Part shown: positions 4,988 through 62,522 of the stretch, piece after piece | How positions within the stretch are numbered: position 1 is the stretch's first letter | How the letters are laid out: each line of letters begins with the position of its first letter | DNA from: a virus | Length of the DNA stretch: 64,000 bases | Reading direction: 5' to 3' (one strand) | IMG/VR virus record: IMGVR_UViG_3300010401_000038 | Coordinates: 1 to 64,000 of that record | Notes under the pieces: generated by a model | What the model was told of the DNA's origin: nothing | The model's input: the letters and a program-made list of their open reading frames with translations, nothing else | The model's database searches: none | Position numbers and translations under genes: made by a program

Positions 4988-5062
4988 TCACCGGACCCTC
5001 ATGTAGACGAGCAGCAGCAGAGCCAGGAGGACGGCGCGCAGGACTGGCCAGGTCCGCCTCAC
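4988..5062 (-). CDS. Possible 24-residue single-span membrane peptide
   Basis: A GTG overlaps the stop of the Lar-like gene as GTGA. The peptide (VRRTWPVLRAVLLALLLLVY...) has a basic N-terminus and one hydrophobic helix. It is the last reading frame of the leftward operon. Very short, so support comes only from the junction and the hydrophobic pattern. Confidence 0.4.
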   Translation of the reverse strand: MRRTWPVLRAVLLALLLLVYMRVR

Positions 5063-5415
5063 CACAGCCGGCCCCACGCCCCGATCAGCAGGATCAGGTC
5101 GGCAAGGCTCAGGGCTACGAGCCCGGCCAGGACGCCGGCCGCGAAGCACATGCCCGGGTTGTCCCTGGCGAACGCGACCCACCAGCGTTCCCGCTTCGCC
5201 GGGGGCGGGTTGGCGCGCAGGAAGCGGCCGTTCGAGAGCGCCTCGATCGGCATGTTCCAGAGCTGGATCGCCCTGTCGGTCCGTGCATCCCACGGCCCGC
5301 GCGCGCCGCACGGGCACATGACCGACGCGCCGACGGTGGGGTGGAAGTGGTAGATCACGATGGGGATGTCGCCGCACCAGCCGCAGGGGCGCGGGTCCTT
5401 CTCAGATTTCAGCAC
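5059..5415 (-). CDS. Lar-like restriction-alleviation zinc ribbon fused to a membrane segment
   Basis: A 118-residue protein from GTG 5415, with AAGGAG upstream. The N-terminal half has the Lar-family pattern: PRPCGWCGDIP, then VMCPCGARGPWD, then an Ala/Ile-x-x-WN ending (AIQLWN). Lar of lambdoid Rac prophage moderates type I restriction in favour of DNA modification. Here a C-terminal hydrophobic helix (about residues 91-113) has been added, which most Lar proteins lack, so it may act at the membrane during DNA entry. The longer upstream frame is a shadow. Exact activity is inferred from family resemblance. Confidence 0.75.
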   Translation of the reverse strand: MLKSEKDPRPCGWCGDIPIVIYHFHPTVGASVMCPCGARGPWDARTDRAIQLWNMPIEALSNGRFLRANPPPAKRERWWVAFARDNPGMCFAAGVLAGLVALSLADLILLIGAWGRLW

Positions 5416-31583: not shown

Positions 31584-33650
31584 GTGAACGCAGGAGACAA
31601 GGTCTCGGTCGTCATCCCCACCCGCGGTCTGTCGGACATGCTGGCGAACTGCCTGCGCAGCCTGGCAGCTCAGTGGCCGTCGCTCGAGGTCATCGTCGTC
31701 GAGCACGAGACCCACGACGCCAAGGAGATCCTCGAGGAGACGTTCCCGCGTGGGATCTACATCGAGGCGTTCGACAAGGACGCTCCCGATCGCGGGGAGG
31801 ATGGACCGAAGGGCCATTCGTACTCGACGCTCAACAACCTGGGCGTGGCGAAGGCGACCCGGCCGTACATCCTCCTGCTCAACAACGACGTGACCGCGCG
31901 CAAGGGTTCGATCGACGCGATGGTAGAGGTCCTCGAGAAGGACGAACAGACGGGGATCGTCGGCGCGAAACTCCTGACCCCCAAGAACAAGATCCAGCAC
32001 ATCGGGGTCGTGTTCAACCACTACGGCATCCCGTCGCATCTCGGGTGGGGAGAGGAGCACGCCCGCACGTTCCTACCCGCTTGGCGGAGCGAATACTTCG
32101 ACGCCGTGACCTTCGCCGCTGCGCTCATCCGACGCGACCTGTGGGAGAAGCTCGGCGGCCTGTCCGACGACTACTTCTTCAACTACGAGGATTCGGACTT
32201 CTGCCTGCGCGCGCGCGCCGAGGGCTTCCGCTGCTACGTCAACCAGGTGGCGATTTTCACCCACCTCGAGGGCGGCAGCGGCGACCTGCGCACGACCGAG
32301 CACCACTCCATCAAGCGAAACCTGACGGTCTTCCGCGACAAGTGGATCGAGACCGGGACGCTGGAGAACCTGACGGGGATCCGGCTCACGACCGGACAGG
32401 GGCCGCTGGCGATGGAGCGGCTCAACGTGATCATGATGCCGAGCGGGCGCGGCGCCGGCGTGAGCTGGTGGCGGATGGACCTCATCGGCCAGAAGCTCGT
32501 CAAGAGGAAGCTCGCCAACGTCATGTTCTGCTTCCCGGACATGAAGCAGGACGCGCTGATGGAGGCGTTCGGGCGCGCCGACCTGGCCGTCATCCAGGGG
32601 CACCACGGCGGCGACCTGCTGCGCGCGTTGCGCGCGGATCGCCCGTTCAAGACGGTGTTCGAGCACGACGATCACCCGGTCTACCTGAGCCCCTACGCCG
32701 AGGTCTACCGGACACTCGGGACCCAGGAGATCCAACTCCTCGGGAGCGACGGCAGCGCAATCTGGCTGTGGCGCGACGGCGAGAGCGGGTTCGACCTCGA
32801 CCGGAACCGCGCCGCCAAGGCGTCCCTGCTCGAGACGATGGGCGCCTGTGACGCAATGACGACGACGACCGTGCCGCTGGCCGAGTACTTCTCGACCATC
32901 AGCAAGCACGTCTTCGTCCTGCCGAACTGCGTCGACTTCGACCATTACCCGCCCGTCTTCGACCGCTACCAGCGCGCGGGTGACGATGGCGTGCGTGTCG
33001 GCTGGTGGGGAGGCGACAACCACTGGCACGACATGACCGCGATCGGGCCTTGGCTCCGTGACTTCATCAACGCGCGCGAGGACGCGAAACTCGTGCTCAT
33101 CGGCGCGTTCTACCGCGGCCCGTTCCGCGGCATCGACATGGCGAAGGTCGAGGACCAGCAGTGGGTCCACGTCGAGGCGTGGCCGTACAAGCTGGCGACG
33201 GCCGGGCTCGACGCCGCCATCATCCCGCTCGCCAGCCCCTCCCAGCCGTACATGCAGTTCAACCACTTCAAAAGCGACATCAAGTGGCTCGAGGCCGCCG
33301 CCTACAAGATCCCCTGCCTCGTGCAGGCCGGCGTGGCGCCCTACGAGAACTGCATCGACGGGGTGAACGCGCTGACGTTCGCCTCGCGCGAGGAGTTCCT
33401 CGAGAAGCTCGATCGCCTCACGAAGGACAGCGACCTGCGCCGCCGCCTCGGGCAGGCCGCCTACGACTACGCCAGGGAGTACCGTGACCTGGAGAAGAAC
33501 ATCGAGAGCTGGCTGGACATCTACCAGCAGGTCGCGAAGGGCGAGTACATCTTCGAGAAGAAGGCCAAGGAGAGCGAGGAGGCGATTCCCGCTCTCGGAC
33601 CCGCCCTGCCGGCGGTCGAGGCGAGAGGGGTCCGGGATGCGGCCTCGTGA
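31584..33650 (+). CDS. Two-domain glycosyltransferase (GT2-like plus GT-B-like)
   Basis: A 688-residue protein from GTG 31584 after AAAGGAG. Residues 5-270 are a GT2-type GT-A domain: VSVVIPTRGLSDMLANCLRS, the DxD-like LLLNNDVTARKGSID and the C-terminal FNYEDSDFCLRARAEGF. Residues 275-660 resemble a GT4-type GT-B domain with MPSGRGAGVSWWRMD, VLPNCVDFDHYPPV and the donor-side DIKWLEAAAYKIPCLVQ. It lies inside the head gene block, so it may glycosylate capsid or decoration proteins, or a host surface polymer. Substrate is unknown. Confidence 0.85.
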   Translation: MNAGDKVSVVIPTRGLSDMLANCLRSLAAQWPSLEVIVVEHETHDAKEILEETFPRGIYIEAFDKDAPDRGEDGPKGHSYSTLNNLGVAKATRPYILLLNNDVTARKGSIDAMVEVLEKDEQTGIVGAKLLTPKNKIQHIGVVFNHYGIPSHLGWGEEHARTFLPAWRSEYFDAVTFAAALIRRDLWEKLGGLSDDYFFNYEDSDFCLRARAEGFRCYVNQVAIFTHLEGGSGDLRTTEHHSIKRNLTVFRDKWIETGTLENLTGIRLTTGQGPLAMERLNVIMMPSGRGAGVSWWRMDLIGQKLVKRKLANVMFCFPDMKQDALMEAFGRADLAVIQGHHGGDLLRALRADRPFKTVFEHDDHPVYLSPYAEVYRTLGTQEIQLLGSDGSAIWLWRDGESGFDLDRNRAAKASLLETMGACDAMTTTTVPLAEYFSTISKHVFVLPNCVDFDHYPPVFDRYQRAGDDGVRVGWWGGDNHWHDMTAIGPWLRDFINAREDAKLVLIGAFYRGPFRGIDMAKVEDQQWVHVEAWPYKLATAGLDAAIIPLASPSQPYMQFNHFKSDIKWLEAAAYKIPCLVQAGVAPYENCIDGVNALTFASREEFLEKLDRLTKDSDLRRRLGQAAYDYAREYRDLEKNIESWLDIYQQVAKGEYIFEKKAKESEEAIPALGPALPAVEARGVRDAAS

Positions 33651-43287: not shown

Positions 43288-44379
43288 ATGGCGCTCCTCC
43301 CTGTACAGCCGAACGACCCGCGCTACCCGCAGCCGATCCCGGGTATGCCGCCGATGCCCCCGCTCCCTCCCGCTCCGGTCGTGCCGGGGGTCGCCGGGCC
43401 TCCTGCGTGGGGTGCCATCCCTCCCGGCACTCCAGCCCCGGGGCCGGCCGTCGACTCGCTCCCGTTCGCGAATCCGACGCCCCCCGGGATGGCCGCTTCT
43501 CCAGCGACGCCCGACCAGCCGCCCTTCGGTGGGACGGAGTACTGGTCGAACGTGATGCGCAAGTACCTCGACGAGATGACGCGCGTCCAGCCGCCCATCC
43601 AGCCGCAGCCGCTCGACAACAGCCAGGTCGCAGCGTTCATGCTCAATCCGTCGATGCGCCCGCAGCTCATGGAGATGTACCACGAGCCCATGCGCGCGGC
43701 GATCGCCAACTCGCGATCGCGCGACGAGATGCTCGGGCGCGCCGTGGGCGGCGCCGGACACATGCTGGCCGCCGCAGGCGAGTACGAGCAGCGCGCCGCG
43801 GAGGACCGCCGCCGCAAGGACGCGCAGGACTACCAGACCGCCCACAGCGCCGCCCTCAACGGCGACGTCAACTTCGATTTCAGCCGCTTCCCGGAGCTCG
43901 CGAGCCTGGCGCACACGAAGGCCGTCCAGTTCGGGACGATCCACGCGCCGGAGGACCGGGTCACGCGACAGGACCGCCTCCGCAAGGAGTGGGGTGGCCA
44001 CCTCGACAAGTTGCGCGGCGACATCGACAAGGTGCGCGAGCAGCGCATCCAGCTCGGGCTCAATCCCAACTTCCAGAGCCTCTCGAGCCTCCTGGTCGGG
44101 CAGGACGAGGACGCGAAGAAGTACGCCAAGACGCAGATCGGCGACCTGGCCGACGCGCGCCAGAGTCTCGTCGAACAGGAGGGGCAGCTCAAGGGCGAGT
44201 ACGAGTTCGTCGCCCACCTGAGCACGGCGATGGGACCGCACGGCGAGCCGTCGCCCTACGAGAACTTCATCAACCTGTCCGACCCGGAGCGCCGCAAGAT
44301 CATGGACGAGTTCGCGCGGGCCCAGGCACGGAAATCCAGCCAAGGTGACGTGGTCCGTGGACCGCTCGCGAGCCCCTGA
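43288..44379 (+). CDS. Internal virion (ejection) protein
   Basis: A 363-residue protein with a Pro-rich first quarter and helical remainder (MHMLAAAGEYEQRAAEDRRRK-like stretch, DKVREQRIQLGLNPNF, LADARQSLVEQEGQLKGEYE). Two ejection-type proteins followed by a giant enzyme mirrors the gene order of podovirus ejectosomes. Stop and the next ATG share one base. Confidence 0.6.
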   Translation: MALLPVQPNDPRYPQPIPGMPPMPPLPPAPVVPGVAGPPAWGAIPPGTPAPGPAVDSLPFANPTPPGMAASPATPDQPPFGGTEYWSNVMRKYLDEMTRVQPPIQPQPLDNSQVAAFMLNPSMRPQLMEMYHEPMRAAIANSRSRDEMLGRAVGGAGHMLAAAGEYEQRAAEDRRRKDAQDYQTAHSAALNGDVNFDFSRFPELASLAHTKAVQFGTIHAPEDRVTRQDRLRKEWGGHLDKLRGDIDKVREQRIQLGLNPNFQSLSSLLVGQDEDAKKYAKTQIGDLADARQSLVEQEGQLKGEYEFVAHLSTAMGPHGEPSPYENFINLSDPERRKIMDEFARAQARKSSQGDVVRGPLASP

Positions 44380-47300
44380 TGCCGCCGCGCGCCGCCGACC
44401 CGTTCGAGGCCCTTCGCGGCCAGCTCGGACTGACCGGGGACTCCACCTCCGCCCCGCCTGACGCCGCCCCATCGGGCGACGACCTCGAGCGCAACTTCGG
44501 CCTGCCCCCTGGACTTCTCGACGCCGTGATGGCGAAGGAGTCGGCCGGGGATCCCAACGCGGTGTCTCCGAAGGGCGCGGCCGGCGCCTACCAGTTCATG
44601 CCGGCGACGGCGCGCTCCTACGGGCTCCGGGTCGACCTCGGGAAGGACGAGCGCCTCGACCCGGTGAAAAGCCGGGCGGCCGCGGCCCGCTATCTCGGAG
44701 ACCTGCACCGCAAGTACGGCCGTACGGACCTCGCGGTGGCCGCCTATAACGCCGGCGAGCCGGCCGTGGACTCGGCGCGCGGCATCCCAGACTACCCAGA
44801 GACGCAGCAGTACGTCCAGCGCGTGATGGGCCAGCTCGGCGCGCCCGGGGCTCCGGCGCCCGCGCAGACGGCCAGCGACGCGGCGACGCGGCTGCGCTCA
44901 CAGCTCGGGCTCGACGCGCCACAGGAACAGCCTGGAACGGACTGGTGGACCCAGGTCGCGGCGGCGCAGCCCCAAGCTGCCAGGCCGGAGACCGCCGCGG
45001 CTCCCGCGCCGCCCGTGCCGGGGCCGGCGACCCCCGACACGGGCGGCTACCAGCCGCCACGCATCACGCCGGGCCCAGGCGGAGACCTGGCGATGCAGCT
45101 CCCCGATCACCCGCCGCAGGGCGAGGTCAACGTGCCGCCGAAGTCGGCCACCGACTACGAGCAGAAGCGCCGCGAGCTCGCGCAGTGGTGGGAGAGCGGC
45201 GGCAAGGCCCTCCCGCCGGACCAGATCCGCCGCCTTGGTCCGGAGTACGCGAAGTACGCCGACTACATCACGGGGAAGGGCGGCCCGACGATCGGGCCTC
45301 CGCCGGCCGAGTACGACATGACGGGCGGCCAACTCGCGCGCGCCACCGGCGAGCAGGCCGCGGCTGGCGCGCTCGACGTCGTCGCCCCATTCGCGCCCAA
45401 CGCGCCGGATTTCGTGAAGTGGTACCGCCAGGCAGGCCCGACGGGGCCGATCGGCGTCGGCGCCGGGCTCGCCGGAACGCTCGCGGGTTACATGACCCCC
45501 GCCCCCCTGCCGCTCGCCTCGCAGAAGGTGGGGCGCGCTGCGGCGGACCTGATGATCGGGAGCGGCGCAATCAAGGCGGCCAACCAGGGAGGAAAGGCCC
45601 TGTTCGAGGACTCCCTCGACGCGCTGCTCAAGGGCTCCGACGGCCAGGAAGTGCTCGCCGCCGCCGACCGCGCGCGCAAGGCGGCGCAGGCCGCCGGCCT
45701 CAGTGCGGACGAGGCGGAGAGCGCCGCCTCCGTCGCCGCGACCGACCACATCCGCACCGTCGTATCCCCGAAGGCAGCGAAGTTCTCCGACTCGATGTCG
45801 GCCGAGCTGCTCAAGAAGATGTCCGGCCCGGCCCGCGTCTGGGCGGCGAGGAACCTGGTCGAGCCGTCGACCGCTGGCCTGACCGCCGCGTCCATCGAGT
45901 CGGCCGTCGGCGTCGCGCGCGGCGAGATGAAGCCCGACGAGGTCCCTGAGCACCTGGTCGGCACGTCGCTCGGCTTCCTGGTGGCGCATCTGGGGTGGCA
46001 GGGCATCACGGCGGCCCTCCGTGAGGCCGGCGCCGTTCCGCGCGACTTCGTGGGCCGTGCCCGCCGCGGCCAGGACCTCACCGACGACGAGAAAGCCATG
46101 CTCGAGCGCCTCATGCAGAGGATCCGTGAAGGGCGTCAGGAGCCGGCCTCCTACGACGTGCCGCCGCAGATGGTTGCAGGCACGCCTCCACAGGCGCCGA
46201 CCGGCCCGGTCGCCCCTGGTGAGGCGCTCGAGCGCACCGGACAGGCCCAGGCCCTCGACGCCGTTCTGCGCCCGGTGCGCGAGGCCAAGGCGCGCGAGGA
46301 CCTGCGCCAGAAGCTCCTCGCCGAGCGCGCCAGCGACAAGGCCGCCCGGGAAGCCTCCGTGGCCGCCGCGGCGCCGGAGGACGTGTCCGCCGCGATGGGC
46401 CCCCTGCAGGAGCGGGCAAAGTTCTACGTGGAACGTGGGCTCCTGTCCGATGGCGAGGTCCAGGCCGCCGACTCGCCGGACGCCATCGGGAAACTGCTCG
46501 AGACCGCGCAGGCGCGCCGGGCGGAGGAGGAATCGCGAAAGCTCGCCACGATGGCCCAGGACGCACGACTGGCCGGCCAAGGCATCGAGACGCCACTCCC
46601 GACCGCCCCCGAGGCGCCACCGCCCACGCCTGCTCCCACGGGCCCCGTTCCGCAGCCGCCTCCGGTCGAGGAGATGTACATGCCGAGCCAGAGGGAGCGG
46701 TTCTGGATCTCGAGCATCGTGGCGCGCGCCAAGACGGCCGACGAGGCGGTCCAGATGGCGAACGAGCGCCTGACCGCGAAGCCGGGACTCGAGAAGTACG
46801 TTCGGGGCCGGTTCGCCCTCGGGGCGTCCGCGGCGGCGCGCGCCGGTGGTCTCAAGGAGACGATCGGCAAGGCCAACGCCTCCGAGCGGGCGCGGCTGGC
46901 GGCCGGGGAAAGTCGGACGAAGGTCGCGCGGGACATCGAGGCCCGGGTCGCCGCTGATGCCGCGCACGCCGAGCGCGAGAACCTCCGGCGCGCCGCGGGG
47001 GAGCAGCCGACGGCGATTGGCCGAGCCACGGACCTCGACATCGGGAGGAAGTTCTTCGGGCAGACCGCCGGCACGGTGTCGGCTCCCGGGGCGCCCCCGC
47101 CGGCGGAAACGACCGGAGTCGCACCTTCCCCTCCGCCGCCGGCGGTGGCGCCTCCCGCGCCCGCTCCACCCGCGCCGCTTTCACCGGAACCGGCCGTTTC
47201 ACCGTCCGGTGAAAGCCCCGCTCCGGGTGAAACTCCCGCGCCCGCGGCGCCGCCCGTGAAGGCGGCAAAGCGCACGAAGGAACAGCAGACCTACGTCGAG

Positions 47301-50300
47301 GCCCTCTCGAGCGCCGTCGGCCAGGTTGGGAAGATGATCATCACGGAGACCGGCCCGATCCGGATCGACCGGCAGGTCGACATCAAGAAGCGCGGCCAGC
47401 GGGATTCGACGACGAGCGACCTCCACCCCGACACGATCAAGGTCCTCAACGACACCGGCCTCGGGATGCTCAAGGGCCTCCTGGTCAACAGCGACGGCAC
47501 GCCGATCGACGAGGCGGCGCAGTACATGTTCGACCGCGGTACGGGGCACTCGGTCGTCGACGCGCGTCGGATGATCCTCGACGAGCTGATGAAGATCGCG
47601 AAGGACGCGAGCGCCGGGAAGTTCCTGCGCCTATCCGAGCAGCTCCAGTGGGGCAAGCCGATCGACGGTTCCGAGGGCGCGATCGTCACGGTGACCGCCG
47701 GGACCCTCGTGAAGGGCGACGAGTTCCAGTCCCAGGATGGCGAAGGCTGGACGGTCACGAGCATCAAGCCCGGTATCATCACGATCGAAAACACCGTCTC
47801 ACAGAAGATCCGGCGGGTCGACGAGTTCGACATCATCCCGACGCTCGGCGGCGTCTCGAAGGCCGGCGACATGAAGGGGTGGCCGGGAACGAGCGAGCCG
47901 TACCACGCCTACCGCGCCGGCGGTCGGACGAGCTTCTTCCGCGAGCGGTCGATGCTGGTGCGCGAGGCGCCGGCTGACTGGAAGGCTGTCCCGAACGACG
48001 TCAAGGCGGCGGTGATCCGGACGGGCGCCTGGCACATGCGCCGCGGCGCGCGCGACGTCGAGAAGTTGACCGCGGCGATGGTGGGCGACTTCGGCGACCG
48101 GGTGCGCCCTTTCGTCCAGAATGTCTTTGCGCTACTCTCAAGGACGCCGGAGTTCGCGTCTCCGGCAGCGCAACCGGCGGGCGCCGCGGGTCCGACACCA
48201 ACCACTCCGGTCCCTGTTGGGTCGCCGGGCGTCGCGCCACCGAAGGCACCGGAGGCCCCGGTCGCAAAGCCGGCAACTCCGGCGCCCGCCGGCGGGGCAG
48301 GAGGAGCCAATGTCAGGCCCGAACCTCGACGAACTCAGCCAGCCCTCGGACAGCCCGTTGGAGCAGGAGGAGGGGCGCGTCTACCCGCCGCCCAGCCCGG
48401 AGGACGAGCGCGGCCTGTCCCTGGCGTTGAAGCAGGTCCGGCAGCGCCTCCTCCTGAAAAAGCGGCAAAGGCACCCAAGCCCGAGAAAGTCGAGCCGACC
48501 AGGACCCTCCGACCCGGCGGCATAGCGACCATCAGTCAGGAGCTCCTGCCGCCCCTCGAGCCGGAGTGGAAGTCCATCCTCGATCGCCTGACCCAGCCCG
48601 CCGGACTCGACAAGCTCGGGTCGATGTTCGGGACGCGCCCGCTCGAGCACCAGGTCGAGAACATGGTGCGCATCCTGCGCGCGTTCAAGCTCGGGCGCGC
48701 GCCGGTCCTAGCGGATGGCGGCGGGACCGGCAAGACGCTGTCGGCGATCATGGTGATCAACGAGCACCTGCTCAACAACCCGAACAGCCGCACCCTCGTC
48801 GTCCTGCCGAACCAGGAGATCAAGAAGCAGTGGGAGCGCACGCTCAAGCGCGCCGGCATCGCCGCGCACTACGTCGAGGGCGCGCTGTCGCCCAAGCCGA
48901 TGACGGTCAACTTTATGACCTACAAGCGGCTGGAAATCTGGGGGCGCGAGAAGAACCTCGGCCTGATCGAGGGGTTCGCCCCGGACCTGCTCATCTTCGA
49001 CGAGAGCCACCGGCTGCGCAATTTCTACACGGGGGACACCGAGACGGCGAAGCTCGGCGTCGCGATCACCGGGAAGACGGATTCCGGCGAGAACGTCGCG
49101 AAGAACGTCCTGTTCATGTCGGGGACGCCGTTCGAGTCGTTCCTGCACACCGCCTACCTCGGCCGTACGGGCCTGTGGGAGCCGAAGAAGAAGTGGGAGG
49201 ACTGGATCTTCGACCTGACCGGCATCTACAAGGACCGGGACGGTGGGTGGGTCGGCGCGAGCCCGAAGACGCTGCGCAAGGTGCACGAGGCGATGTACCG
49301 CGGCGGCGTGATGATGAAGCACGAGCTCGACTTCAACGGCATCAAGAACTCGAAGGGCGAGAAGATCACCGTCACCGCAGAGCACCGGATGGCGAAAGCG
49401 AGCCCGGAGCACGCCGCCGAGCAGCACCGGATGGATGGCGTCTTCGGGTCAGTCCTCGAGGAACTGCAGCAGGACGCCTTCCGCAACCGGAACCGGATCC
49501 GCCTGGTCGCTGGCGTGCAGCACCTTTTCAACCGCTCGATGGACGAGACGGAGAAGGTGCGCCAGGTGATCGAGCACGCCCGCGCGCGCGCCGCCGAAGG
49601 TAAGAGCGTGATCTTCATGCTCCTGCGGAAGAACGAGACGTCCGCGGAGCGGTGGCTGGCCGACTTCGAGGCCGGGAAGCGCGAGTACAACCCGAAGTCG
49701 TTCATGCCTGAGCTCATCAACATCCTCAAGGACCACGGCATCAAGACGCCATCGCCGGTCGCGACTCTGCGCCGCGCGTTCCCGGACGCCGTGATGATCA
49801 CGGGCGACGAGCCGAGCGGCGGCGGCAAGCGTGCCAGCGCGATCGAGCACTTCCAGGCCGGAAAGGCGAAGGTCGCGATCGTGACGATGGCGTCTGGCGC
49901 CGAGGGGCTCGACCTGCAGGACACGACCGGCGATCACCCGCGCATCATGTACGTCGCCAGCGTCCCGTACACCGCCGGCCAGGCGTCACAGGTGGCCTGG
50001 CGGCCGTTCCGTCTCGGGAGCGAATCGAACGCCGAGATCGTCTGGCTGTTCACCGACTCGGCCCAGGACTTCCGGCAGGCGCGCCTCGTCGCCGCGCGTG
50101 ATCGTGAGATGGGCGCCCTCGTCCGCGGCGAGGTCGAGAGCCCGACGGCTGACGAGCGCGAGCGATTCAATTTCCCGGAGCTCAACAAGAAGCCGGTCGA
50201 GATGCCCGGCCTTGAGGCGTCCCTCGGCCCGGCGGGAACGACGGTGCAGCTCGAGGACTACATGTACGCCGACCTCGTCCCCGACGCCGACTACAACGTC

Positions 50301-53300
50301 AGCGAGCAGCGCCACAAGTACCGCCCGTCCGAATCGGAACAGCCGGAGCTGTTCGGGTCGGTCTCGGGCGTGCGCTACGCGAGCAACGCGAAGAAGCGTG
50401 GCGGGGCCATCCTCTCGGAGGACAGCGCCCTCTGGCACAAGCTCGAGCAGACCGGCGCTGGCGTGAACATCTACCGGGAGCGCATCGACGGGCCGGCCGA
50501 CATCGCGGCGATGTTCGGGTTCCTCAAGGACCGCGCGCGCGAGCACATGTATTTCGTTGGGATGAAGGGCGACAAGCCGCTCGGCGTCGTGCTGCACGCG
50601 ATCGGTGGGGTCAACTCCGCGAGGATGGACCCGCACCGCGCCGTGCCGGAGCTCGTAGCCCTCGGAGCGGACGGTGTCTACGTCGTCCACAACCATCCGT
50701 CCCAGAGCCCGGAGTTGAGCCACGACGACGTGATGATGGCCGCGAGCCTGCGCGACCTACTCGAGCCGCACGGCGTCGCCATGCACGGCATCCTCGCCAC
50801 CGACATCGATCGCTTCGGGTTCTCCACTGGGCCGTCACACCCCGGCCCGTTCATCCAGAAGGTCGGAGCGATGGGGAGTCCGATCGGCCGGCTCAACGAG
50901 GTTGCGCTCGCCTACAAGAGGGAGCGCCCTGTCGTCGGCGACATCGCGAGCGGCCCGCTCGACGCGGCGATGGCGTATCACGCCATGACGGTCGGCAACG
51001 ATGTTCGCCAGACGATGTTCATGGCGCGCGACAACAAGGGGCGGATCACTGGCCACATCGCCGTGCCGGCAGAGCCGCGCGAGCTCGTCGAGCGTCCGGA
51101 ACACGCCGAGAGCCTCGCGGCCGTGCGCCGCTTCCTGGCGCGCGCCGAACACACGGAGGTCCTCGTCGCGACCAACCGTATCGGCGGGTCGGTCATAGGG
51201 GCCGACGAGGACTGGTTCGCGAACTATCGGACGAAGATGGACTCGACGCTGGCCGTGATGAAGGCCGCCCTCGGCGATTCGGTCAAGGTCATAGACCTGA
51301 TCGGCGTTCCCCCTGGCGGGTTCACCGGCGTCGCTCACACGACTTACGGCGGCCGAAGGGAATGGGACCAGGCTGGGGCGAAGAAGAAGTTCCAGGTCTC
51401 GGAGCCGAAGGTCGGCCGCGGGCTCGGTGGCCTGCCGGCGCGCAGCGAGATCATCCGGAAGGCAGAGGAAGCCGTCGGGACGGCGATCCGCGTCGGTCGC
51501 ATGGGGCGCACGAGCAGGAGCGTGCTCGGCTTCTACAAGCGCCCCGGCGGCCAGATTCGCCTGCGCACGCCGAACGACATGCGCGTTGTGCTCCATGAGA
51601 TCGGCCACCGGCTCGACGACCTCATCTTCAAATCGCACGCTGTCGGTCACGACCTCGGCAGCGTGCGCGCGCTAGCGCGCTTCCGGGCGGAGCTGCTCCC
51701 GCTCGCGACGATCCCGGGCCGCGGTCAGGACCCCCTCCCGGAGGGCTTCGCCGAGTTCATGTACCACTACGTCAACGACCCGGCGAAGGCGGCGCGCGTC
51801 GCTCCGACGTTCTACCCGTGGTTCGAGAGCTACATGTCGAGCGCGAAGGACCTGCGCGTGCTGCACGAGGGCTTCCTCGGCCTCCGGGACCTGATGAAGG
51901 AGTGGAACCAGGCGGACCCGTGGGAGCGCCTCGGGAGCACCATCGTCAGCGGCGAGATGCCGTGGCACCAGTTCCGCCACGACATGACCTGGCGCCACCT
52001 CTACTCGTACACGTTCGACCAGATGCACTTCCTCCGGTGGGCGCAGGGCAAGCTCGAGGCGATGGCCGATGGCCAGCCGCTCCGCCAGGACCAGAACCTC
52101 AAGGTCCTCGCGACGACGATCATGGGGCGCATGGGGATCCGCGACATCATGATCGAGCACGGCATGGTCCGCTTCGAGACCCCCGGCGTGCGCGTCGGGC
52201 CCGGGTTGCGCGAGATCGCCGACTCGATCGGCGGGAAGTGGCGCCGCTACGAGACCTGGGTCAAGGCTCTGCGCACGCAGTACCTCATGGGCCGGGACCG
52301 CATGGGCGCCAAGGAGTTCATCGGAGACGCCGTCAAGGACGCCGAGATCCGCCAGATCGTCGACGACGGGAAGAAGGAGTTCCTGCACGTCTTCTCGATG
52401 CAGCAGGGCTACTCTCAGGGCCTCCTGCGCTACCTGGTGGGCGCGGGGATGCTGAAAGAGGAGCAGTTCTACGACGTCCACTCGAAGAACCTGATCTACT
52501 CGCCCTTCTGGCGCCTGATGGACGCGGAGCAGTTCACCCGCCCCGGTGGCCAGCCCGGAGGCGCCGCCGGCGGCCGCATGGCGAGCCTCTACAGGGGCGT
52601 CCTGTACACCCTGCGCGGCAGTTCGCGGGAGACGTTCCCGGCGCTCGAGTCGCTCCTCCGGATGACGAACGTCGTCGTCGACCGGGCGGAGCGCAACGCG
52701 GTCGTCGCGGCGCTCCTGCAGGCATCGAAGCACCTCAAGGACGCTGGCGTCCACATCGCCGAGATCGTTCCGGAGGAGCGCGTTCCAGTGGAGTTCCGCG
52801 TCGGGAGCGTGCTCGCGGCGCTCAAGAACGAGATGGGGATCAGCGCCAAGGGCGTCGACGAGGAGGACCTCGACAAGTACCTGACGGTATTCATGCCGTC
52901 GACGAGGATGCCGAAGGCGCCGTACGTCTGGGCCTGGATCAACGGCGAGCGGAAGTACGCCTGGATTCACCCGGACGTCTACGACACGCTGATGAACCTT
53001 GAGCGCGAGCAACTCCCCTGGTTTATCTCGTGGATGCGGGCCGGCCCGACCATCGTGCGCGGGGGCGCCGTCGTTCTGAACCCCGGATTCTGGGGCTGGA
53101 ACGAAATCCGCAAGGTCGCGACGACGATTATCCAGAGTCAGGCGCCCTGGCAGAACCTCAAGTTCATGCCGCGCGCCTTCATCGACGGGCTGCTCAAGAC
53201 GGACAGGTACTACAAGTACATGGCGACCGGCGCCGCCTACGCGACGTTCGTCAGGCAGAGCGAGGATGCCGTCGCCACAGCCATCCGTCACATGCTCGAT

Positions 53301-54542
53301 CGGAAGGAGGGCGCTATCTCCTTCTACGCGAACCCGGTGAACGTGATGCGTGGCGTCTTCACTGTGGCGCAGCGCATCCTGTCGGCGACGGACATGGCCC
53401 CGCGTATCGCGGAGGCACGCGCCCTCGGGCTCGATCGCGCCACGACTCGCGCGCAGCTCCTTCCGCTCGGCGCCGCGGCCTCCGACGTCACGCTCGACTA
53501 CCGCCGCATCGGAACGAAGCTCAAGCTCCTGTCGGGGGTCACGGCGTTCCTGACGGCGCACATGCAGGCGATCGACCGACCCGTGAGGTTCGCCAAGGAC
53601 CGTCCGGGGAAGGCGGCGGCGGTCGCCGTGACGGGTTTCCTGCTCGGCCTCATGTACTACCTGCTCAACCGAGACGACAAGCGATACCAGAACGAGGCGC
53701 AGGAGAACAAGGACACGTACTTCTACTTCTATCCGACCGACGATCCGACCGACCCCGGGATCCGGATGCCGAAGCCCTACGCCTACGGGTGGTACGTGAC
53801 GGCCGGCGAGCGCACGGCCGAGATGATGGGGAAGCACGACCCGGAGATGCTCAATCAGTTCGCCTGGGACTTCGGTCGCGGGATGACGCCCAACTTCTTC
53901 CCGACCGTCCTGCAGCCGATCTTCGAGGTCGGCATGAACCGGAAGTTCAACACCTGGCGGAAGGTCGAGCCCGACTCCGGGTTGCCGCAGGAGCGGTCGT
54001 TCCCGTGGACGACGGAGACGGCCAAGGACATCGCGCGTGCCCTCTCGAGCGAGGAACGCGGCGTCAGCGGACCCGTCGTCGAGCATCTGGCCTCCGGGTT
54101 CACCGGCGGCCTGGGACTGGACCTCCTCGAGGCGTCCGACAAGTACGTACTCGGTATCCCACCGAAGCAGCGCACGAGCCTCGCGGATGAGCCGGTCATC
54201 GGGCGGTTTTTCAGCCGGCAGCCTGAGTTCTCGACGAACGCCGTGCGCCGGTTCTACGAGCAGTGGACCCCGGCGGAGAACGCCTACCAGTCGCTCCTGC
54301 AGGCGCGCGCGACCTCGCCGATGGACGAGATGAAGTTCAGGGAGCGGTACAGCGACCTCCTGCGGCGCCGGACGGCGATGCAGGGCGCGCACACGACCAT
54401 CAGTCAGGGCTGGAAGGATCTCGACCGGCTCCAGAACGTCCCGATGGACGACGCGGCACGGCAGCGCGCCGAGAACGCCATCGCGCAGCGCCTCACCTGG
54501 GCGGCGAAAATGGGGCTTGCGGCAGCGGACGCCGTAAAGTGA
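44379..54542 (+). CDS. Giant polyvalent virion protein: SLT, SNF2-like helicase, RadC/JAB, zincin, LPD38
   Basis: A 3387-residue protein. Domains in order: (a) residues 36-150, soluble lytic transglycosylase with catalytic Glu54 in AKESAGDPNAVSPKGAAG; (b) long Ala/Pro linkers and helical regions to about 1400; (c) residues 1410-1900, SNF2/DEAD-type helicase with Walker A GGGTGKT (Lys1452), DESH at 1541-1544, an MSGTPFES motif III and QVAWRPFRLGS as motif VI; (d) about 2030-2160, RadC/JAB metalloprotease-like domain with H2104-N-H2106 and SHDD; (e) HEIGH zincin motif at 2406-2410 with PEGFAEF (2455-2459) as possible third ligand; (f) C-terminal helices with an LPD38-like region and membrane segment near 3055-3100. 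Such proteins are packaged and injected with DNA, digesting peptidoglycan and then acting in the host. Residues about 1312-1363 are read in a frame with poor coding bias (see 48310-48525). Confidence 0.85.
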   Translation: MPPRAADPFEALRGQLGLTGDSTSAPPDAAPSGDDLERNFGLPPGLLDAVMAKESAGDPNAVSPKGAAGAYQFMPATARSYGLRVDLGKDERLDPVKSRAAAARYLGDLHRKYGRTDLAVAAYNAGEPAVDSARGIPDYPETQQYVQRVMGQLGAPGAPAPAQTASDAATRLRSQLGLDAPQEQPGTDWWTQVAAAQPQAARPETAAAPAPPVPGPATPDTGGYQPPRITPGPGGDLAMQLPDHPPQGEVNVPPKSATDYEQKRRELAQWWESGGKALPPDQIRRLGPEYAKYADYITGKGGPTIGPPPAEYDMTGGQLARATGEQAAAGALDVVAPFAPNAPDFVKWYRQAGPTGPIGVGAGLAGTLAGYMTPAPLPLASQKVGRAAADLMIGSGAIKAANQGGKALFEDSLDALLKGSDGQEVLAAADRARKAAQAAGLSADEAESAASVAATDHIRTVVSPKAAKFSDSMSAELLKKMSGPARVWAARNLVEPSTAGLTAASIESAVGVARGEMKPDEVPEHLVGTSLGFLVAHLGWQGITAALREAGAVPRDFVGRARRGQDLTDDEKAMLERLMQRIREGRQEPASYDVPPQMVAGTPPQAPTGPVAPGEALERTGQAQALDAVLRPVREAKAREDLRQKLLAERASDKAAREASVAAAAPEDVSAAMGPLQERAKFYVERGLLSDGEVQAADSPDAIGKLLETAQARRAEEESRKLATMAQDARLAGQGIETPLPTAPEAPPPTPAPTGPVPQPPPVEEMYMPSQRERFWISSIVARAKTADEAVQMANERLTAKPGLEKYVRGRFALGASAAARAGGLKETIGKANASERARLAAGESRTKVARDIEARVAADAAHAERENLRRAAGEQPTAIGRATDLDIGRKFFGQTAGTVSAPGAPPPAETTGVAPSPPPPAVAPPAPAPPAPLSPEPAVSPSGESPAPGETPAPAAPPVKAAKRTKEQQTYVEALSSAVGQVGKMIITETGPIRIDRQVDIKKRGQRDSTTSDLHPDTIKVLNDTGLGMLKGLLVNSDGTPIDEAAQYMFDRGTGHSVVDARRMILDELMKIAKDASAGKFLRLSEQLQWGKPIDGSEGAIVTVTAGTLVKGDEFQSQDGEGWTVTSIKPGIITIENTVSQKIRRVDEFDIIPTLGGVSKAGDMKGWPGTSEPYHAYRAGGRTSFFRERSMLVREAPADWKAVPNDVKAAVIRTGAWHMRRGARDVEKLTAAMVGDFGDRVRPFVQNVFALLSRTPEFASPAAQPAGAAGPTPTTPVPVGSPGVAPPKAPEAPVAKPATPAPAGGAGGANVRPEPRRTQPALGQPVGAGGGARLPAAQPGGRARPVPGVEAGPAAPPPEKAAKAPKPEKVEPTRTLRPGGIATISQELLPPLEPEWKSILDRLTQPAGLDKLGSMFGTRPLEHQVENMVRILRAFKLGRAPVLADGGGTGKTLSAIMVINEHLLNNPNSRTLVVLPNQEIKKQWERTLKRAGIAAHYVEGALSPKPMTVNFMTYKRLEIWGREKNLGLIEGFAPDLLIFDESHRLRNFYTGDTETAKLGVAITGKTDSGENVAKNVLFMSGTPFESFLHTAYLGRTGLWEPKKKWEDWIFDLTGIYKDRDGGWVGASPKTLRKVHEAMYRGGVMMKHELDFNGIKNSKGEKITVTAEHRMAKASPEHAAEQHRMDGVFGSVLEELQQDAFRNRNRIRLVAGVQHLFNRSMDETEKVRQVIEHARARAAEGKSVIFMLLRKNETSAERWLADFEAGKREYNPKSFMPELINILKDHGIKTPSPVATLRRAFPDAVMITGDEPSGGGKRASAIEHFQAGKAKVAIVTMASGAEGLDLQDTTGDHPRIMYVASVPYTAGQASQVAWRPFRLGSESNAEIVWLFTDSAQDFRQARLVAARDREMGALVRGEVESPTADERERFNFPELNKKPVEMPGLEASLGPAGTTVQLEDYMYADLVPDADYNVSEQRHKYRPSESEQPELFGSVSGVRYASNAKKRGGAILSEDSALWHKLEQTGAGVNIYRERIDGPADIAAMFGFLKDRAREHMYFVGMKGDKPLGVVLHAIGGVNSARMDPHRAVPELVALGADGVYVVHNHPSQSPELSHDDVMMAASLRDLLEPHGVAMHGILATDIDRFGFSTGPSHPGPFIQKVGAMGSPIGRLNEVALAYKRERPVVGDIASGPLDAAMAYHAMTVGNDVRQTMFMARDNKGRITGHIAVPAEPRELVERPEHAESLAAVRRFLARAEHTEVLVATNRIGGSVIGADEDWFANYRTKMDSTLAVMKAALGDSVKVIDLIGVPPGGFTGVAHTTYGGRREWDQAGAKKKFQVSEPKVGRGLGGLPARSEIIRKAEEAVGTAIRVGRMGRTSRSVLGFYKRPGGQIRLRTPNDMRVVLHEIGHRLDDLIFKSHAVGHDLGSVRALARFRAELLPLATIPGRGQDPLPEGFAEFMYHYVNDPAKAARVAPTFYPWFESYMSSAKDLRVLHEGFLGLRDLMKEWNQADPWERLGSTIVSGEMPWHQFRHDMTWRHLYSYTFDQMHFLRWAQGKLEAMADGQPLRQDQNLKVLATTIMGRMGIRDIMIEHGMVRFETPGVRVGPGLREIADSIGGKWRRYETWVKALRTQYLMGRDRMGAKEFIGDAVKDAEIRQIVDDGKKEFLHVFSMQQGYSQGLLRYLVGAGMLKEEQFYDVHSKNLIYSPFWRLMDAEQFTRPGGQPGGAAGGRMASLYRGVLYTLRGSSRETFPALESLLRMTNVVVDRAERNAVVAALLQASKHLKDAGVHIAEIVPEERVPVEFRVGSVLAALKNEMGISAKGVDEEDLDKYLTVFMPSTRMPKAPYVWAWINGERKYAWIHPDVYDTLMNLEREQLPWFISWMRAGPTIVRGGAVVLNPGFWGWNEIRKVATTIIQSQAPWQNLKFMPRAFIDGLLKTDRYYKYMATGAAYATFVRQSEDAVATAIRHMLDRKEGAISFYANPVNVMRGVFTVAQRILSATDMAPRIAEARALGLDRATTRAQLLPLGAAASDVTLDYRRIGTKLKLLSGVTAFLTAHMQAIDRPVRFAKDRPGKAAAVAVTGFLLGLMYYLLNRDDKRYQNEAQENKDTYFYFYPTDDPTDPGIRMPKPYAYGWYVTAGERTAEMMGKHDPEMLNQFAWDFGRGMTPNFFPTVLQPIFEVGMNRKFNTWRKVEPDSGLPQERSFPWTTETAKDIARALSSEERGVSGPVVEHLASGFTGGLGLDLLEASDKYVLGIPPKQRTSLADEPVIGRFFSRQPEFSTNAVRRFYEQWTPAENAYQSLLQARATSPMDEMKFRERYSDLLRRRTAMQGAHTTISQGWKDLDRLQNVPMDDAARQRAENAIAQRLTWAAKMGLAAADAVK
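48310..48525 (+). other. Embedded +1-frame ORF inside the giant gene
   Basis: ATG 48310 follows AGGAGGAG (48299-48306) by three bases. The +1 frame reads MSGPNLDELSQPSDSPLEQE and on through LSLALKQVRQRLLLKK with strong G/C third positions until about 48457, whereas the giant frame there is low-complexity with weak third-position bias. At 48456-48462 the sequence GAAAAAG would let a ribosome slip -1 from this ORF back into the helicase frame. Either a compensating indel pair or an internal start plus frameshift producing a separate helicase is possible. Confidence 0.45.
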
Positions 54543-57454: not shown

Positions 57455-57672
57455 CCGCCGAGACCCTTGGATTGCGCTCGCGCCGCCCTCGTCGTGGCGC
57501 TCTTACCGTGTCGCAATCGGCGGGTGCGCCGACGGGGCCCGGGGAGGATGCGGGGACGTGCGAAAACCCCGAGGATTCCCCGGGCGGTCGGTTCTCGTTC
57601 GTGGAGGATGATGCACCGACCTTCGTGAGGACGCGGCCCCCGGTCGCGTATCCCGAGAGGAGACGACGTTGA
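57451..57672 (+). CDS. Small low-complexity protein
   Basis: A 73-residue protein from GTG 57451 (GTGA). Gly/Pro/Arg-rich and probably disordered; ends VAYPERRRR. It overlaps the TTG start of the next gene. No family recognised. Confidence 0.5.
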   Translation: MTAETLGLRSRRPRRGALTVSQSAGAPTGPGEDAGTCENPEDSPGGRFSFVEDDAPTFVRTRPPVAYPERRRR

Positions 57673-58961
57673 TCGAGGGATTCGTGAAGCAGAACGGGCT
57701 ACCGCCGCGCATCGCGAAGATCCGGCTCGGCGTCAAGGGGAAGACGCAGGCTGGCAAGGAGTACCCGAAGGACACCGATCACTTCGTCCTGGCGGACTGC
57801 CCGGAGGTCGCGGTGCGCTACGGCGATCGCCCCAAGGCGCTCGTCGTCATGTTCGCATCCGACCAGATCGAATACAACTTCCCGCAGCGCCTCGAAGCGT
57901 GGAGCGGGAAGCCGCCCACGGATGGTCAGCCGAGCAAGTCGACCCTGTTCTGCTCGAGCGATGGCGTCACCGCGCACCGCATCTACAAGCCCGAGAAGGA
58001 CCCGAGCGGCAAGGCGTACGTCCAGAGCCTCGACGCCGACGACCAGCCCGAGGAAGGCGAGATGTTCGAGATGCCCTGCCCCTACCACGACTGCCCGTAC
58101 TTCGAGGGGCGCGGCTGCAAGGAGGTCGGGCGCCTGAACGTCGTGCTCCCCGAGATCACCCTGAGCGGCACGTATCAGGTCGAGACGTCGTCCGCCTACG
58201 GCGCGAGCAACATCTTCCAGATGATCGACTCGCGTCTCGACGAGACGGGCGAGCCGCGCGGCTGGGCGATGAGGATGACGCGCAGCGAGCGTCACCCCGG
58301 CGGTCACATCGCGTGGACGGTGCCGTTCGTGCTCGAGCGCGTGCCGCAGACCGTGGTGTTCGAGGGGAAGGGGACGATCAAGCATATCCTCCGCCTGCGC
58401 GCCCTCGACGACGCCGAGAAGCTGCGCAACCTCCAGATCAGCGTGCCAGCGTGGATGAGCGGGCGTACCGTGTTCGCCTCCTACGGGCCGCCGCAGATCG
58501 ACCGGCCGGAGGACCTGTTCCCGGGGGTCGCGACCGACCAGGTGCCAGCCATCGAAGCGCCGGCCGCGCAGCGTGCTCTGCCGCCGGCGTTGGAAGCCAC
58601 ATCCCAGCAGACGAGCACGGCCCCCGCGGCGGCGAGCGGACGAGAAACCGCTCCGAAACCCGCCGCGGCGGTCGTGCCGGACGCGATCGTCGAGTGGGCG
58701 AAGAAGGCCGGCGTCACGGCGGCCCAGCTCGAGAACCTGAAAATCTCCATGCGCGGCGACGAGGACCGTATCGTCGCCGAGCTCAAGGCGCGGGTGGCGC
58801 GCAAGGCTGACAAGAGGGCCGCCTCGCCTGCTCCGCCGCAACCGGCAGCACAGAGGCCGGCCGCACCGCCCCCGACCGCTCCCAGCCCCGCGCGGACGCA
58901 GCAAGGGTCGCCGGAGCCGCCCGAGTCGGGGCCTGGCGACCAGACGATTCTGGATTTCTGA
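57669..58961 (+). CDS. Gp3-like (phiC31 RDF-type) Cys-containing protein
   Basis: A 430-residue protein from TTG 57669. The N-terminal 300 residues resemble the Gp3-like group: PRIAKIRLGVKGKTQAGKEY, a strand-rich region, LFCSSDGVTAHRIYKP, a Cys cluster CPYHDCPYFEGRGCKEVG and ETSSAYGASNIFQMI. phiC31 gp3 is a recombination directionality factor, but homologues in many phages sit with replication and recombination genes and probably bind DNA. After residue 300 comes an Ala/Pro-rich tail ending GDQTILDF, which could bind a partner. No serine integrase is in this window. Confidence 0.6.
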   Translation: MIEGFVKQNGLPPRIAKIRLGVKGKTQAGKEYPKDTDHFVLADCPEVAVRYGDRPKALVVMFASDQIEYNFPQRLEAWSGKPPTDGQPSKSTLFCSSDGVTAHRIYKPEKDPSGKAYVQSLDADDQPEEGEMFEMPCPYHDCPYFEGRGCKEVGRLNVVLPEITLSGTYQVETSSAYGASNIFQMIDSRLDETGEPRGWAMRMTRSERHPGGHIAWTVPFVLERVPQTVVFEGKGTIKHILRLRALDDAEKLRNLQISVPAWMSGRTVFASYGPPQIDRPEDLFPGVATDQVPAIEAPAAQRALPPALEATSQQTSTAPAAASGRETAPKPAAAVVPDAIVEWAKKAGVTAAQLENLKISMRGDEDRIVAELKARVARKADKRAASPAPPQPAAQRPAAPPPTAPSPARTQQGSPEPPESGPGDQTILDF

Positions 58962-60140: not shown

Positions 60141-60316
60141 GCTGGTCGAGGTTTCTGTCCGGGGTCGCCATTGCGCTCACCTGCCTTGTGGCGTCGGCCG
60201 TGAACTACCAGAAGGGTCATCTATTTTTGGCTCTTTTGGAATTCGGCCTCAGTTCGATCATCGCCTTCCTGTGCGGGGTCTACTTCCCGCCCGACAAGAA
60301 AGGACGCCGCCTGTGA
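60137..60316 (+). CDS. Small two-span membrane protein
   Basis: A 59-residue protein in an ATGA junction. Two hydrophobic helices (FLSGVAIALTCLVASAV and LALLEFGLSSIIAFLCGVYF) end in a basic tail. It lies between nuclease and Rad50-like genes. Function unknown. Confidence 0.6.
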   Translation: MSWSRFLSGVAIALTCLVASAVNYQKGHLFLALLEFGLSSIIAFLCGVYFPPDKKGRRL

Positions 60317-62172
60317 AGATCAACAGCATCGCGATCGACAACCTGCGCAGCCACCACCACACCGAGATCAAGGACCTGGCGGAGGTCGTGTTCTTCGTCG
60401 GCCAGAACCGCGTCGGCAAGAGCACGATCATCGACGCCATCTCCTACACGCTGCGCGGGACGTGCCGGGGCGTCGACGACGGTGGCCGGGGCGTCGCCTA
60501 CCTCCCCACCCGGGACGGTAAGGTGCTCGCAGAGCAGTTCCGCGTCAGCCTCGCGACCGACATGGGCCTGATCTCGCGCGCCGGCCCGGGCGAGGGCGTT
60601 CGCAGCCCCGTCCAGGCGCAGGTCGACGGCCTGTTCAACAAGGACGGGGGCCAGCCTCTCGACCTGCGCGTGCTCGTCGAGACGCCGCGCTTCCTCGACT
60701 TCAACCCGAAGGATCAGCTCGCGTGGATGCACCGCGTCCTGACCCCGCGGATCCCGACCGGGTGGGTGGCGCAGGAGCTCGGCGAGGATTTCGCCTACCT
60801 CGAGCCGCTCCGGATGGACTGGTCGGAGCCACTGAGCCTCGACCGGGCGGAGAAGTACGTCCGCGAGCGCCGTCACCATCTCAAAAAGTCCATCGACGAA
60901 GTGAAGTCGATCGACCTGAGCACCTTCCCGGACACCTGGAAGAAGCTCACGCCGGAGGAGGCCGCGTCGCACCTGACCCGGTCGGAGGCAACCCTCATGG
61001 ACCTGCGCGAGCAGCTCCAGCGCGGGACACCAGACCTCAAGGGGCTGCAGGCGGTGTGCGAGCAGGCGGCGGCGGCCCAGGGACGGGCGGCGGCGCGCAT
61101 CACCGAGCTTGAGGCCGACCCGGCTGCGGCCAGAGACGTCAAGGTGCTCCGGAAGAACCTCAAGGGGGTCGAGACGAAGATCGCCCTCCTGCAGACGCAG
61201 CGTGCCGAGCGGCTGGCGGACACGAAGGCGCTCGGCGCCGCGCAGGGCGAGCTGGAACTGTGGGAGCGCGCCGAGATCCCACACTGCCCGACCTGCAAGC
61301 GCGCCTACGACGAGAACATGCGGGCCGAGCGGCGTGCGGCCCTCACGAAGGCGGTCTCGATCGGCAAGGCCGCGGAGCGGGCCGTCAAGGACATCGAGGC
61401 CGAGCTGGTGACCCTCCAGGCCGACGCGGAGAAGCTCAGAGGCCCGATCTCGGACGCCTCGAACCATCCCGCCCGGCTGCAGAAGGCGAAGGACGAGGCC
61501 GGCCTGGCGCGCGTGCACGCCGAGGAGGCCAGCCGCATCTACGAGACGGCGAAGTCAGAGGCCCTCGACGAAGAGACCCTCGCGGCCGTCAAGGCACGCA
61601 TCACCCGCGGCGACGCGCTCGTGTCCCACCTGCGGTCCTACATGTCGTCCCGCCAGGCGCAGGAGAAGATCGACCGGACGCTGACTGTGGCGCGCGCCGA
61701 GCTCGCGAGCATGGAGCGGCTCGTGAAGAAGCTGTCGACCGACGGCATCCGCAACGCCATCCCGGGGATCGGCCTGCCGGCGTTCGCGGCGGAGTTCGCG
61801 CAGATCGCCGAGCAGTTCGGGATGCGCCTGGAGTTGAGCCTCGACCCGTTCGTCTTCACGGTGGACGGGCGGCCGACGGACCTCCTCTCGAGCAGCGAAC
61901 GGCTCATGGTGGGGCTGGCGTTCCAGGTCGCCGCGGCGCGCGTCACGGGGGTGCGCTGGATCGCGTTCGACGACGCCGACCGGCTCGACGACGCGCACCG
62001 GCGCGTCCTGCACACCGTCCTCGCGGCGAAGCTCGTAGACCAGGTCATCGTGTGCGCGACGCTCAAGATGCCGGACGCGCAGTTCCAGCCGAAGCAGATC
62101 CCGCCGGGCTGGCAGTTCTTCCTCGTGCAGAGCACGGGGGCCGGCACGGCGGTGACACAGGTGGGGGCGTGA
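60313..62172 (+). CDS. Rad50/SbcC-like SMC-family ATPase
   Basis: A 619-residue protein from GTG 60313 (GTGA). Walker A GQNRVGKST is at residues 30-38. A coiled coil follows with CPTC (Cys325-Cys328) at its apex, the zinc hook. The C-terminal head has the ABC-like signature LLSSSERLMVGLAFQVA and Walker B WIAFDDADRLD near 550. Such ATPases tether and process DNA ends with a nuclease; no Mre11/SbcD gene is seen, so the Cas4-like nuclease upstream is the likely partner. Much shorter than host SbcC, as usual for phages. Confidence 0.88.
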   Translation: MKINSIAIDNLRSHHHTEIKDLAEVVFFVGQNRVGKSTIIDAISYTLRGTCRGVDDGGRGVAYLPTRDGKVLAEQFRVSLATDMGLISRAGPGEGVRSPVQAQVDGLFNKDGGQPLDLRVLVETPRFLDFNPKDQLAWMHRVLTPRIPTGWVAQELGEDFAYLEPLRMDWSEPLSLDRAEKYVRERRHHLKKSIDEVKSIDLSTFPDTWKKLTPEEAASHLTRSEATLMDLREQLQRGTPDLKGLQAVCEQAAAAQGRAAARITELEADPAAARDVKVLRKNLKGVETKIALLQTQRAERLADTKALGAAQGELELWERAEIPHCPTCKRAYDENMRAERRAALTKAVSIGKAAERAVKDIEAELVTLQADAEKLRGPISDASNHPARLQKAKDEAGLARVHAEEASRIYETAKSEALDEETLAAVKARITRGDALVSHLRSYMSSRQAQEKIDRTLTVARAELASMERLVKKLSTDGIRNAIPGIGLPAFAAEFAQIAEQFGMRLELSLDPFVFTVDGRPTDLLSSSERLMVGLAFQVAAARVTGVRWIAFDDADRLDDAHRRVLHTVLAAKLVDQVIVCATLKMPDAQFQPKQIPPGWQFFLVQSTGAGTAVTQVGA

Positions 62173-62522
62173 AGGACGAAGATACCGGGGTGGAGCAGCG
62201 GCCAGCTCATTCGGTTCATACCCGAAAGGTCGAGGGTTCAAATCCCTCCCCCGGCACCACCGTCACCTACGAGCAGGCGGTCATCGTCCAGGAGCAGTGC
62301 TGCTACGCCGGTCCGTCGACCTTCGAGTGCCGGCTCCACGGACAGATAAGCAACCTAATCGTGGGCAGCGCCCTCCACTGCAACCAGTGTCACCGAGAAC
62401 TGCCACTGGCCCGCGCCGTTTACCGGGCCATGCGCTCTATCCACGACGAGATGATCGGCGACATCCGATCGATCCTGAAAGGAGACCCGTGCCCACCCGA
62501 GAAACCGAAGTCCGAGACCTGA
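62169..62522 (+). CDS. Zinc-knuckle protein whose frame runs through the tRNA gene
   Basis: The frame starts at GTG 62169, in a GTGA junction with the Rad50-like gene, and reads through the whole tRNA. After the tRNA it has a credible Cys-rich sequence (CCYAGPSTFEC, ALHCNQCHRELP) of about 85 residues. No ATG, GTG or TTG exists in this frame between the tRNA and GTG 62361. tRNA processing would remove the proposed start, so the two RNAs must compete or the start is unusual. Confidence 0.5.
   Translation: MKDEDTGVEQRPAHSVHTRKVEGSNPSPGTTVTYEQAVIVQEQCCYAGPSTFECRLHGQISNLIVGSALHCNQCHRELPLARAVYRAMRSIHDEMIGDIRSILKGDPCPPEKPKSET
62184..62259 (+). tRNA. tRNA-Met(CAU), initiator-like
   Basis: A 76-base cloverleaf with encoded CCA (62257-62259). 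Acceptor 62184-62190 pairs with 62249-62255 except A1 x C72, which is a mismatch. The D stem has A11-U24, an initiator hallmark. The anticodon loop TTCATAC gives CAU at 62217-62219; the anticodon stem is TTCGG/CCGAA. The T arm is regular (GAGGG, TTCAAAT, CCCTC). The 1-72 mismatch and A11-U24 match initiator tRNAs, but the three G-C pairs at the bottom of the anticodon stem are only partly present (C-G, G-C, G-C). Confidence 0.88.

Follow-up and report, generated by a model that had tools for sequence, protein, structure and literature searches.

A phage-borne tRNA(CAU) with an initiator body and an anticodon arm of elongator type

The window, the stretch of DNA analysed here, comprised 64,000 of the 64,488 bases of an IMG/VR virus record with about 67% GC. 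It held a single tRNA gene, which was located by ARAGORN at 62184-62259 on the + strand and carried the anticodon CAU. The gene matched Rfam RF00005 with 61.3 bits (E = 7.9e-11), confirming the tRNA(CAU) that a sequence-only reading of the window had placed there. Anatomically, the tRNA is a hybrid with an initiator body and an elongator-type anticodon arm. It is tentatively proposed, with a probability put somewhat short of even, that the phage encodes an auxiliary, formylatable initiator-type tRNA whose changed anticodon arm would let it escape nucleases that cut tRNA-fMet. The following features were assigned in the window.

20780/21020-22651, T4-type terminase large subunit
28754-29749, major head protein (PHROG 1328)
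60313-62172, + strand, SbcC-like ATPase upstream of the tRNA (PHROG 77/1499, Pfam AAA_23)
62169-62522, + strand, sense open reading frame overlapping the tRNA, with coding signal from the tRNA 3' end on
62184-62259, + strand, tRNA(CAU) with initiator body, elongator-Met-like anticodon arm and encoded CCA (ARAGORN, Rfam RF00005, profile scores)
62184-62190, + strand, 5' side of the acceptor stem, ACCGGGG, with the A1xC72 mismatch, C2-G71, C3-G70 and G4-C69 (sequence)
62191-62208, + strand, U8, G9 and the initiator-type D arm GAGC-AGCGGCCA-GCTC, in which A11 faces U24 (reference comparison)
62209-62226, + strand, A26 followed by the anticodon arm UUCGG-UUCAUAC-CCGAA, which equals that of Bacillota elongator tRNA-Met over positions 29-41
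62215-62221, + strand, anticodon loop U32 U33 C34 A35 U36 A37 C38
62227-62248, + strand, variable loop AGGUC and T arm GAGGG-UUCAAAU-CCCUC
62249-62259, + strand, 3' side of the acceptor stem, CCCCGGC (C72), followed by A73 and CCA

The acceptor stem ACCGGGG/CCCCGGC lacked a Watson-Crick pair at 1-72, and A1xC72, the reverse of the usual C1xA72, was its sole unpaired position. This mismatch, A11-U24 in the D stem GAGC/GCTC and the CCA encoded after A73 had all been named in the sequence-only reading, and each was found as described. Among the features that direct formylation and keep a tRNA out of elongation, the window tRNA had the 1-72 mismatch, A11-U24, the UG(8-9)-GAGC/GCUC D arm and, from the minor formylation marks A73, C3-G70, G4-C69 and G2-C71 (PMC9976931; marks also in PMC7949028), the first three. 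The fourth was absent, and C2-G71 in its place speaks against the auxiliary-initiator reading. The anticodon stem UUCGG/CCGAA contained C29-G41, G30-C40 and G31-C39. The three consecutive G-C pairs of initiators (3GC) were therefore incomplete, as 29-41 is C-G. The loop read UUCAUAC and not CUCAUAA, the initiator type with C32 and A38. Position 38 was C instead of A, and it is directly 3' of this A38 that VapC cuts tRNA-fMet.

The class of the tRNA was assessed by profile comparison with 19 bacterial initiator, 19 elongator Met and 34 Ile2 genes aligned by standard tRNA numbering. These references originated from Pseudomonadota and Bacillota genomes and from genomes with UUCAUAC initiator-bodied matches. 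In a leave-one-out analysis they were cleanly separated, with initiators at +34 to +59 and the others at -34 to -95. For the body of the window tRNA, taken as everything outside the anticodon arm, the initiator profile gave 56.7 bits, the elongator Met profile 25.6 and the Ile2 profile -12.3, while its anticodon arm scored -4.4, +5.7 and +0.4, respectively. G9, A11, G12, C23 and U24 were present in 100% of the 19 initiators and in 0% of the elongator Met and Ile2 references. Of the latter, 52 of 53 were paired at 1-72 with G1. One list of the elongator references had been filtered for a paired 1-72, and since the unfiltered set held one more member, this filtering conceals at most one exception. 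Across 95 UUCAUAC tRNAs, the initiator body was ahead by a median of 36 bits and a minimum of 7. The initiator-type class is well supported by these comparisons. The designation as initiator-like in the sequence-only reading, which had itself called for a comparison with initiator alignments, thus stood for the body but not for the anticodon arm, where C29-G41 and UUCAUAC had been overlooked. Over positions 29-41, CGG-UUCAUAC-CCG was identical to Bacillota elongator tRNA-Met, and this arm was probably acquired either by replacement through recombination or by convergence. An ordinary elongator Met was rejected by the profile, and the tRNA lacked the paired 1-72, C11-G24 and U8-A9. An Ile2 tRNA was likewise rejected, with G4-C69 and G5-C68 in place of the Ile2-type C4-G69 and C5-G68.

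Scans with the major head protein and the terminase large subunit yielded one close relative, IMGVR_UViG_3300045243_000058 (G001), with 82% identity in the head protein and 76-77% in the terminase. Its single tRNA was located at 50471-50545, just 5' of a different gene and at a different genome position, and a membrane-protein-like open reading frame occupied the place that matches the window tRNA. The two tRNAs were identical at 54 of 68 positions. Five pairs (4-69, 28-42, 29-41, 30-40 and 50-64) were changed on both sides and none on one side. Common to both were A1xC72, A11-U24, UUCAUAC and C2-G71. The retention of A1xC72 and A11-U24 despite five compensatory changes shows that these initiator marks are not due to chance, on a conservation basis of one close relative and a wide tRNA sample. 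The 3GC run was not conserved, with CGG in the window and GCG in G001, where the middle pair is reversed to C30-G40.

The pattern of an initiator D arm with UUCAUAC had at least 120 matches in IMG/VR. A search of 84,980 bacterial and archaeal genomes found UUCAUAC on an initiator body at just 23 places, using a pattern stricter than the IMG/VR one by one fixed base, G7. Of these places, 15 were inspected and at least six adjoined phage genes, namely a head protein, a serine integrase, a terminase small subunit, a minor head protein, a portal with terminase and an antiterminator. The ordinary CUCAUAA initiator was also present in 13 of the 22 genomes with a UUCAUAC initiator body, as judged by the same strict pattern. 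A loop-blind census gave matches in 233 of 299 Pseudomonadota, 179 of 249 Bacillota and 183 of 198 Actinomycetota genomes. Among the matches listed, about 150 in each phylum, the initiators carried CUCAUAA. These amounted to about 450 listed host initiators, the exceptions being the phage-type copies of the seed genomes and a few non-tRNA matches. An initiator pattern with C72 was found in 31 viral stretches and in none of 398 Pseudomonadota genomes, the latter with a stricter pattern in which the CCA had to be encoded and the T loop was fixed. Altogether, initiator bodies carrying an elongator-type anticodon arm are almost confined to phages.

UUCAUAC was not the common form among phage initiator-like tRNAs. 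In a loop-blind viral sample, probably with some host initiators from the ends of prophages among its members, 76 of 82 distinct initiator-bodied tRNAs had the host-type CUCAUAA loop. An initial assignment of UUCAUAC to the majority was dropped, as it made up a few percent of this sample. Position 1-72 was unpaired in 60 of 76 tRNAs in many different ways, including A1xC72 in eight, and G1-C72 was present in one. Within the phage UUCAUAC class, G30-C40 and G31-C39 were mostly kept (TGG, AGG or GGG in 63 of 77). Initiators with A29-U41 were present in many Pseudomonadota, indicating that the first 3GC pair is not essential in general. U29-A41 occurred in 20 of 76 viral initiator-bodied tRNAs, whereas all listed host initiators of the three phyla had G-C or A-U at 29-41.

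The stop of the SbcC-like gene lies 11 nt 5' of the tRNA. This distance suggests that the tRNA is excised from a shared transcript, and neither a promoter nor a terminator was found in a search between the two. No relatives of the SbcC-like protein were found in IMG/VR or among named phages. In a Lachnospiraceae MAG (L205:928-1125), a UUCAUAC initiator-bodied tRNA also adjoins an SbcC-like gene, near a terminase small subunit. The open reading frame at 62169-62522 starts in a GTGA overlap with the SbcC-like gene and runs in sense through the entire tRNA gene, so that tRNA processing would cut its message. Its codon signal was strong from the tRNA 3' end (+21 bits over 62259-62360) and absent from the tRNA part. 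There was no ATG, GTG or TTG near the tRNA 3' end, where this signal begins. The product is rich in cysteine and without relatives in named phages. Elsewhere in the window, a two-domain glycosyltransferase of GT2 and GT1 type (31584-33650, + strand) was located within the structural gene block, and a small protein (5059-5415, - strand) matched the restriction alleviation protein Lar below the threshold (E = 6.7e-5). An open reading frame of 3,387 aa (44379-54542, + strand; GC3 0.90) was unusually large for a 64-kb phage record.

The translation starts of the phage were evaluated by anti-Shine-Dalgarno pairing. For 65 confidently called genes, the median duplex energy was -8.7 kcal/mol, compared with -5.2 for shuffled leaders, and 68% of the genes reached -7 or better, compared with 25% of the shuffles. 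Of the 19 genes with weak pairing, 13 overlapped the upstream stop or started within 5 nt of it, suggesting coupling and not leaderless initiation, and six remained. Shine-Dalgarno sites are thus the main start mode of this phage, with leaderless starts possible for single genes. The sequence-only reading had described leaderless starts in key operons and linked the tRNA to them. The description was not supported as a general feature of a phage in which most genes without strong pairing overlap or adjoin the upstream gene, and the link is left without a base.

Initiator tRNA is needed for every protein and is a known toxin target. MetRS recognition depends mainly on the CAU anticodon. The window tRNA would be co-transcribed with the SbcC-like gene and trimmed by RNase P, charged by the host MetRS via CAU and then formylated, and the 1-72 mismatch should bar it from elongation. 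As fMet-tRNA it would initiate translation. Its altered anticodon arm would escape host nucleases of the VapC type that cut initiator tRNA at 38/39, and phage proteins would still be started when the host tRNA-fMet is cut. The likeliest reason for the phage to carry such a tRNA may be that protein synthesis is kept starting after a defence response in which the host destroys its own tRNA. The enteric VapC cuts tRNA-fMet between A38 and C39 (PMC4105405), and for phage tRNAs an escape from such nucleases through changed anticodon loops has been proposed (PMC10264068). C38 is therefore the change with the clearest possible meaning, and a protective role of the changed anticodon arm can plausibly be inferred. 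Neither a VapC nor another initiator-cutting nuclease could be tied to the window phage. Since CUCAUAA predominates among viral initiator-bodied tRNAs, escape at position 38 is not the general reason for which phages carry them.

That predominance fits a plain top-up, in which initiation is limiting during infection and the anticodon-arm changes represent neutral drift or host-specific tuning of 29-41 and the 32-38 pair. Bacterial initiators vary at 29-41 as well, as the A29 of many Pseudomonadota illustrates. However, positions 32 and 38 were changed jointly and nearly only in phages, and UUCAUAC was kept in the divergent relative G001, which is more than drift readily gives. A top-up is thus conceivable but on the unlikely side. 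Less probable still is a passenger or decaying tRNA, acquired and weakly constrained, without a strong role. The overlap with the open reading frame at 62169-62522, the different location of the tRNA in G001 and the differing 3GC would agree with it, but the exclusively two-sided pair changes, the intact state of every stem and the retained mismatch and CCA argue for constraint. An E. coli initiator tRNA with its 3GC pairs replaced was charged, formylated and bound by IF2, but was inactive in initiation and impaired 30S maturation (PMC10486304). With an incomplete 3GC in the window tRNA, and in G001 with C30-G40, a change that formed part of this inactive 3GC mutant, initiation may be weak. 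Such an initiator body could also act as a decoy or poison that binds IF2 and the 30S subunit, initiates poorly and interferes with initiation in the host or with the maturation of ribosomes, for which the elongator-like score of the anticodon arm could be taken as a further sign. This is considered improbable, as the window tRNA and most members of the phage UUCAUAC class keep G30-C40 and G31-C39, and the phage itself needs translation.

Three further explanations received very little weight. Leaderless initiation is strongly dependent on fMet-tRNA, and an extra initiator tRNA could in principle favour leaderless phage mRNAs, as the sequence-only reading had suggested. With all but six of the 65 genes led by Shine-Dalgarno sites or coupled, such an effect is hardly to be expected. 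An equally slim chance is given to tRNA-dependent lysogeny, in which the phage would integrate into the host initiator tRNA gene and supply its own copy as replacement. Actinophages are known to use this strategy with tRNA-Lys, Leu and Ile2 (PMC10865867), and the window encodes a member of the Gp3-like recombination directionality factor family at 57669-58961, but no tyrosine or serine integrase was detected at E <= 0.1 in the window record or the G001 record, both of which are possibly incomplete. Use as elongator Met, or as Ile2 once C34 is modified to lysidine, had been named beforehand as an outcome that would overturn the initiator assignment. The identity of 29-41 with Bacillota elongator tRNA-Met would suit such a use. 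It is nevertheless most improbable, because the mismatch at 1-72 is unfavourable for binding to EF-Tu in elongation, the D arm is of initiator type, G4-C69/G5-C68 is unlike the Ile2 references and the body profile stood against both classes.

More broadly, phages may have evolved an initiator class of their own, with an initiator body and an elongator-type anticodon arm, that initiates while invisible to initiator-cutting host toxins. This extension of the auxiliary-initiator reading is considered rather doubtful. If true, translation initiation would be contested ground on which phages use an initiator of their own, at odds with the view in the literature that phages as a rule avoid carrying tRNA-fMet (PMC10264068), a statement that the phage initiator-bodied tRNAs call into question. 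A phage class with conserved formylation marks and a changed anticodon arm makes it possible to ask directly whether phages defend initiation and to probe, as a natural experiment, to what extent an initiator depends on the 3GC rule and on C32/A38.

Phage tRNA-fMet genes as such are already known from annotation, as in the phiLM21-like prophages of S. meliloti (PMC12429752). Neither the hybrid anticodon arm nor its almost complete absence among bacterial initiators was found described in the literature searched. With bacterial initiator tRNA-fMet of the E. coli metZWV/metY type, the window tRNA shares an unpaired 1-72, U8-G9, A11-U24, G12-C23, C3-G70, G4-C69 and A73 in the body and G30-C40, G31-C39 and U33-CAU-A37 in the anticodon arm. 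It differs in A1xC72 (mostly C1xA72 there), C2-G71, A26, C29-G41, U32 and C38. Bacillota elongator tRNA-Met shares the identical 29-41 and commonly A26, but has G1-C/U72, U8-A9 and C11-G24. Two other annotated phage-borne CAU tRNAs were also without a strong 1-72 pair. That of EBPR siphovirus 2 (L002:5999-6074; C1xA72) is identical at 27-43 but has an elongator-like D arm with C11-G24; with G55 in its T loop, it represents a different mix of initiator and elongator features. That of the Caulobacter Colossus group (U1-A72) differs in its CUCAUAA loop and U29-A41. Phage tRNA-Tyr and tRNA-Lys counter tRNA-cutting defences (PMC11555353). The proposed role resembles that of such defence-evading tRNAs (the mycobacteriophage C1 set, T5 tRNA-Tyr and phage tRNA-Lys against PrrC), in which the phage replaces a cut host tRNA and for some of which anticodon-loop changes have likewise been proposed. 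Those tRNAs are elongators, whereas the window tRNA has the body of an initiator.
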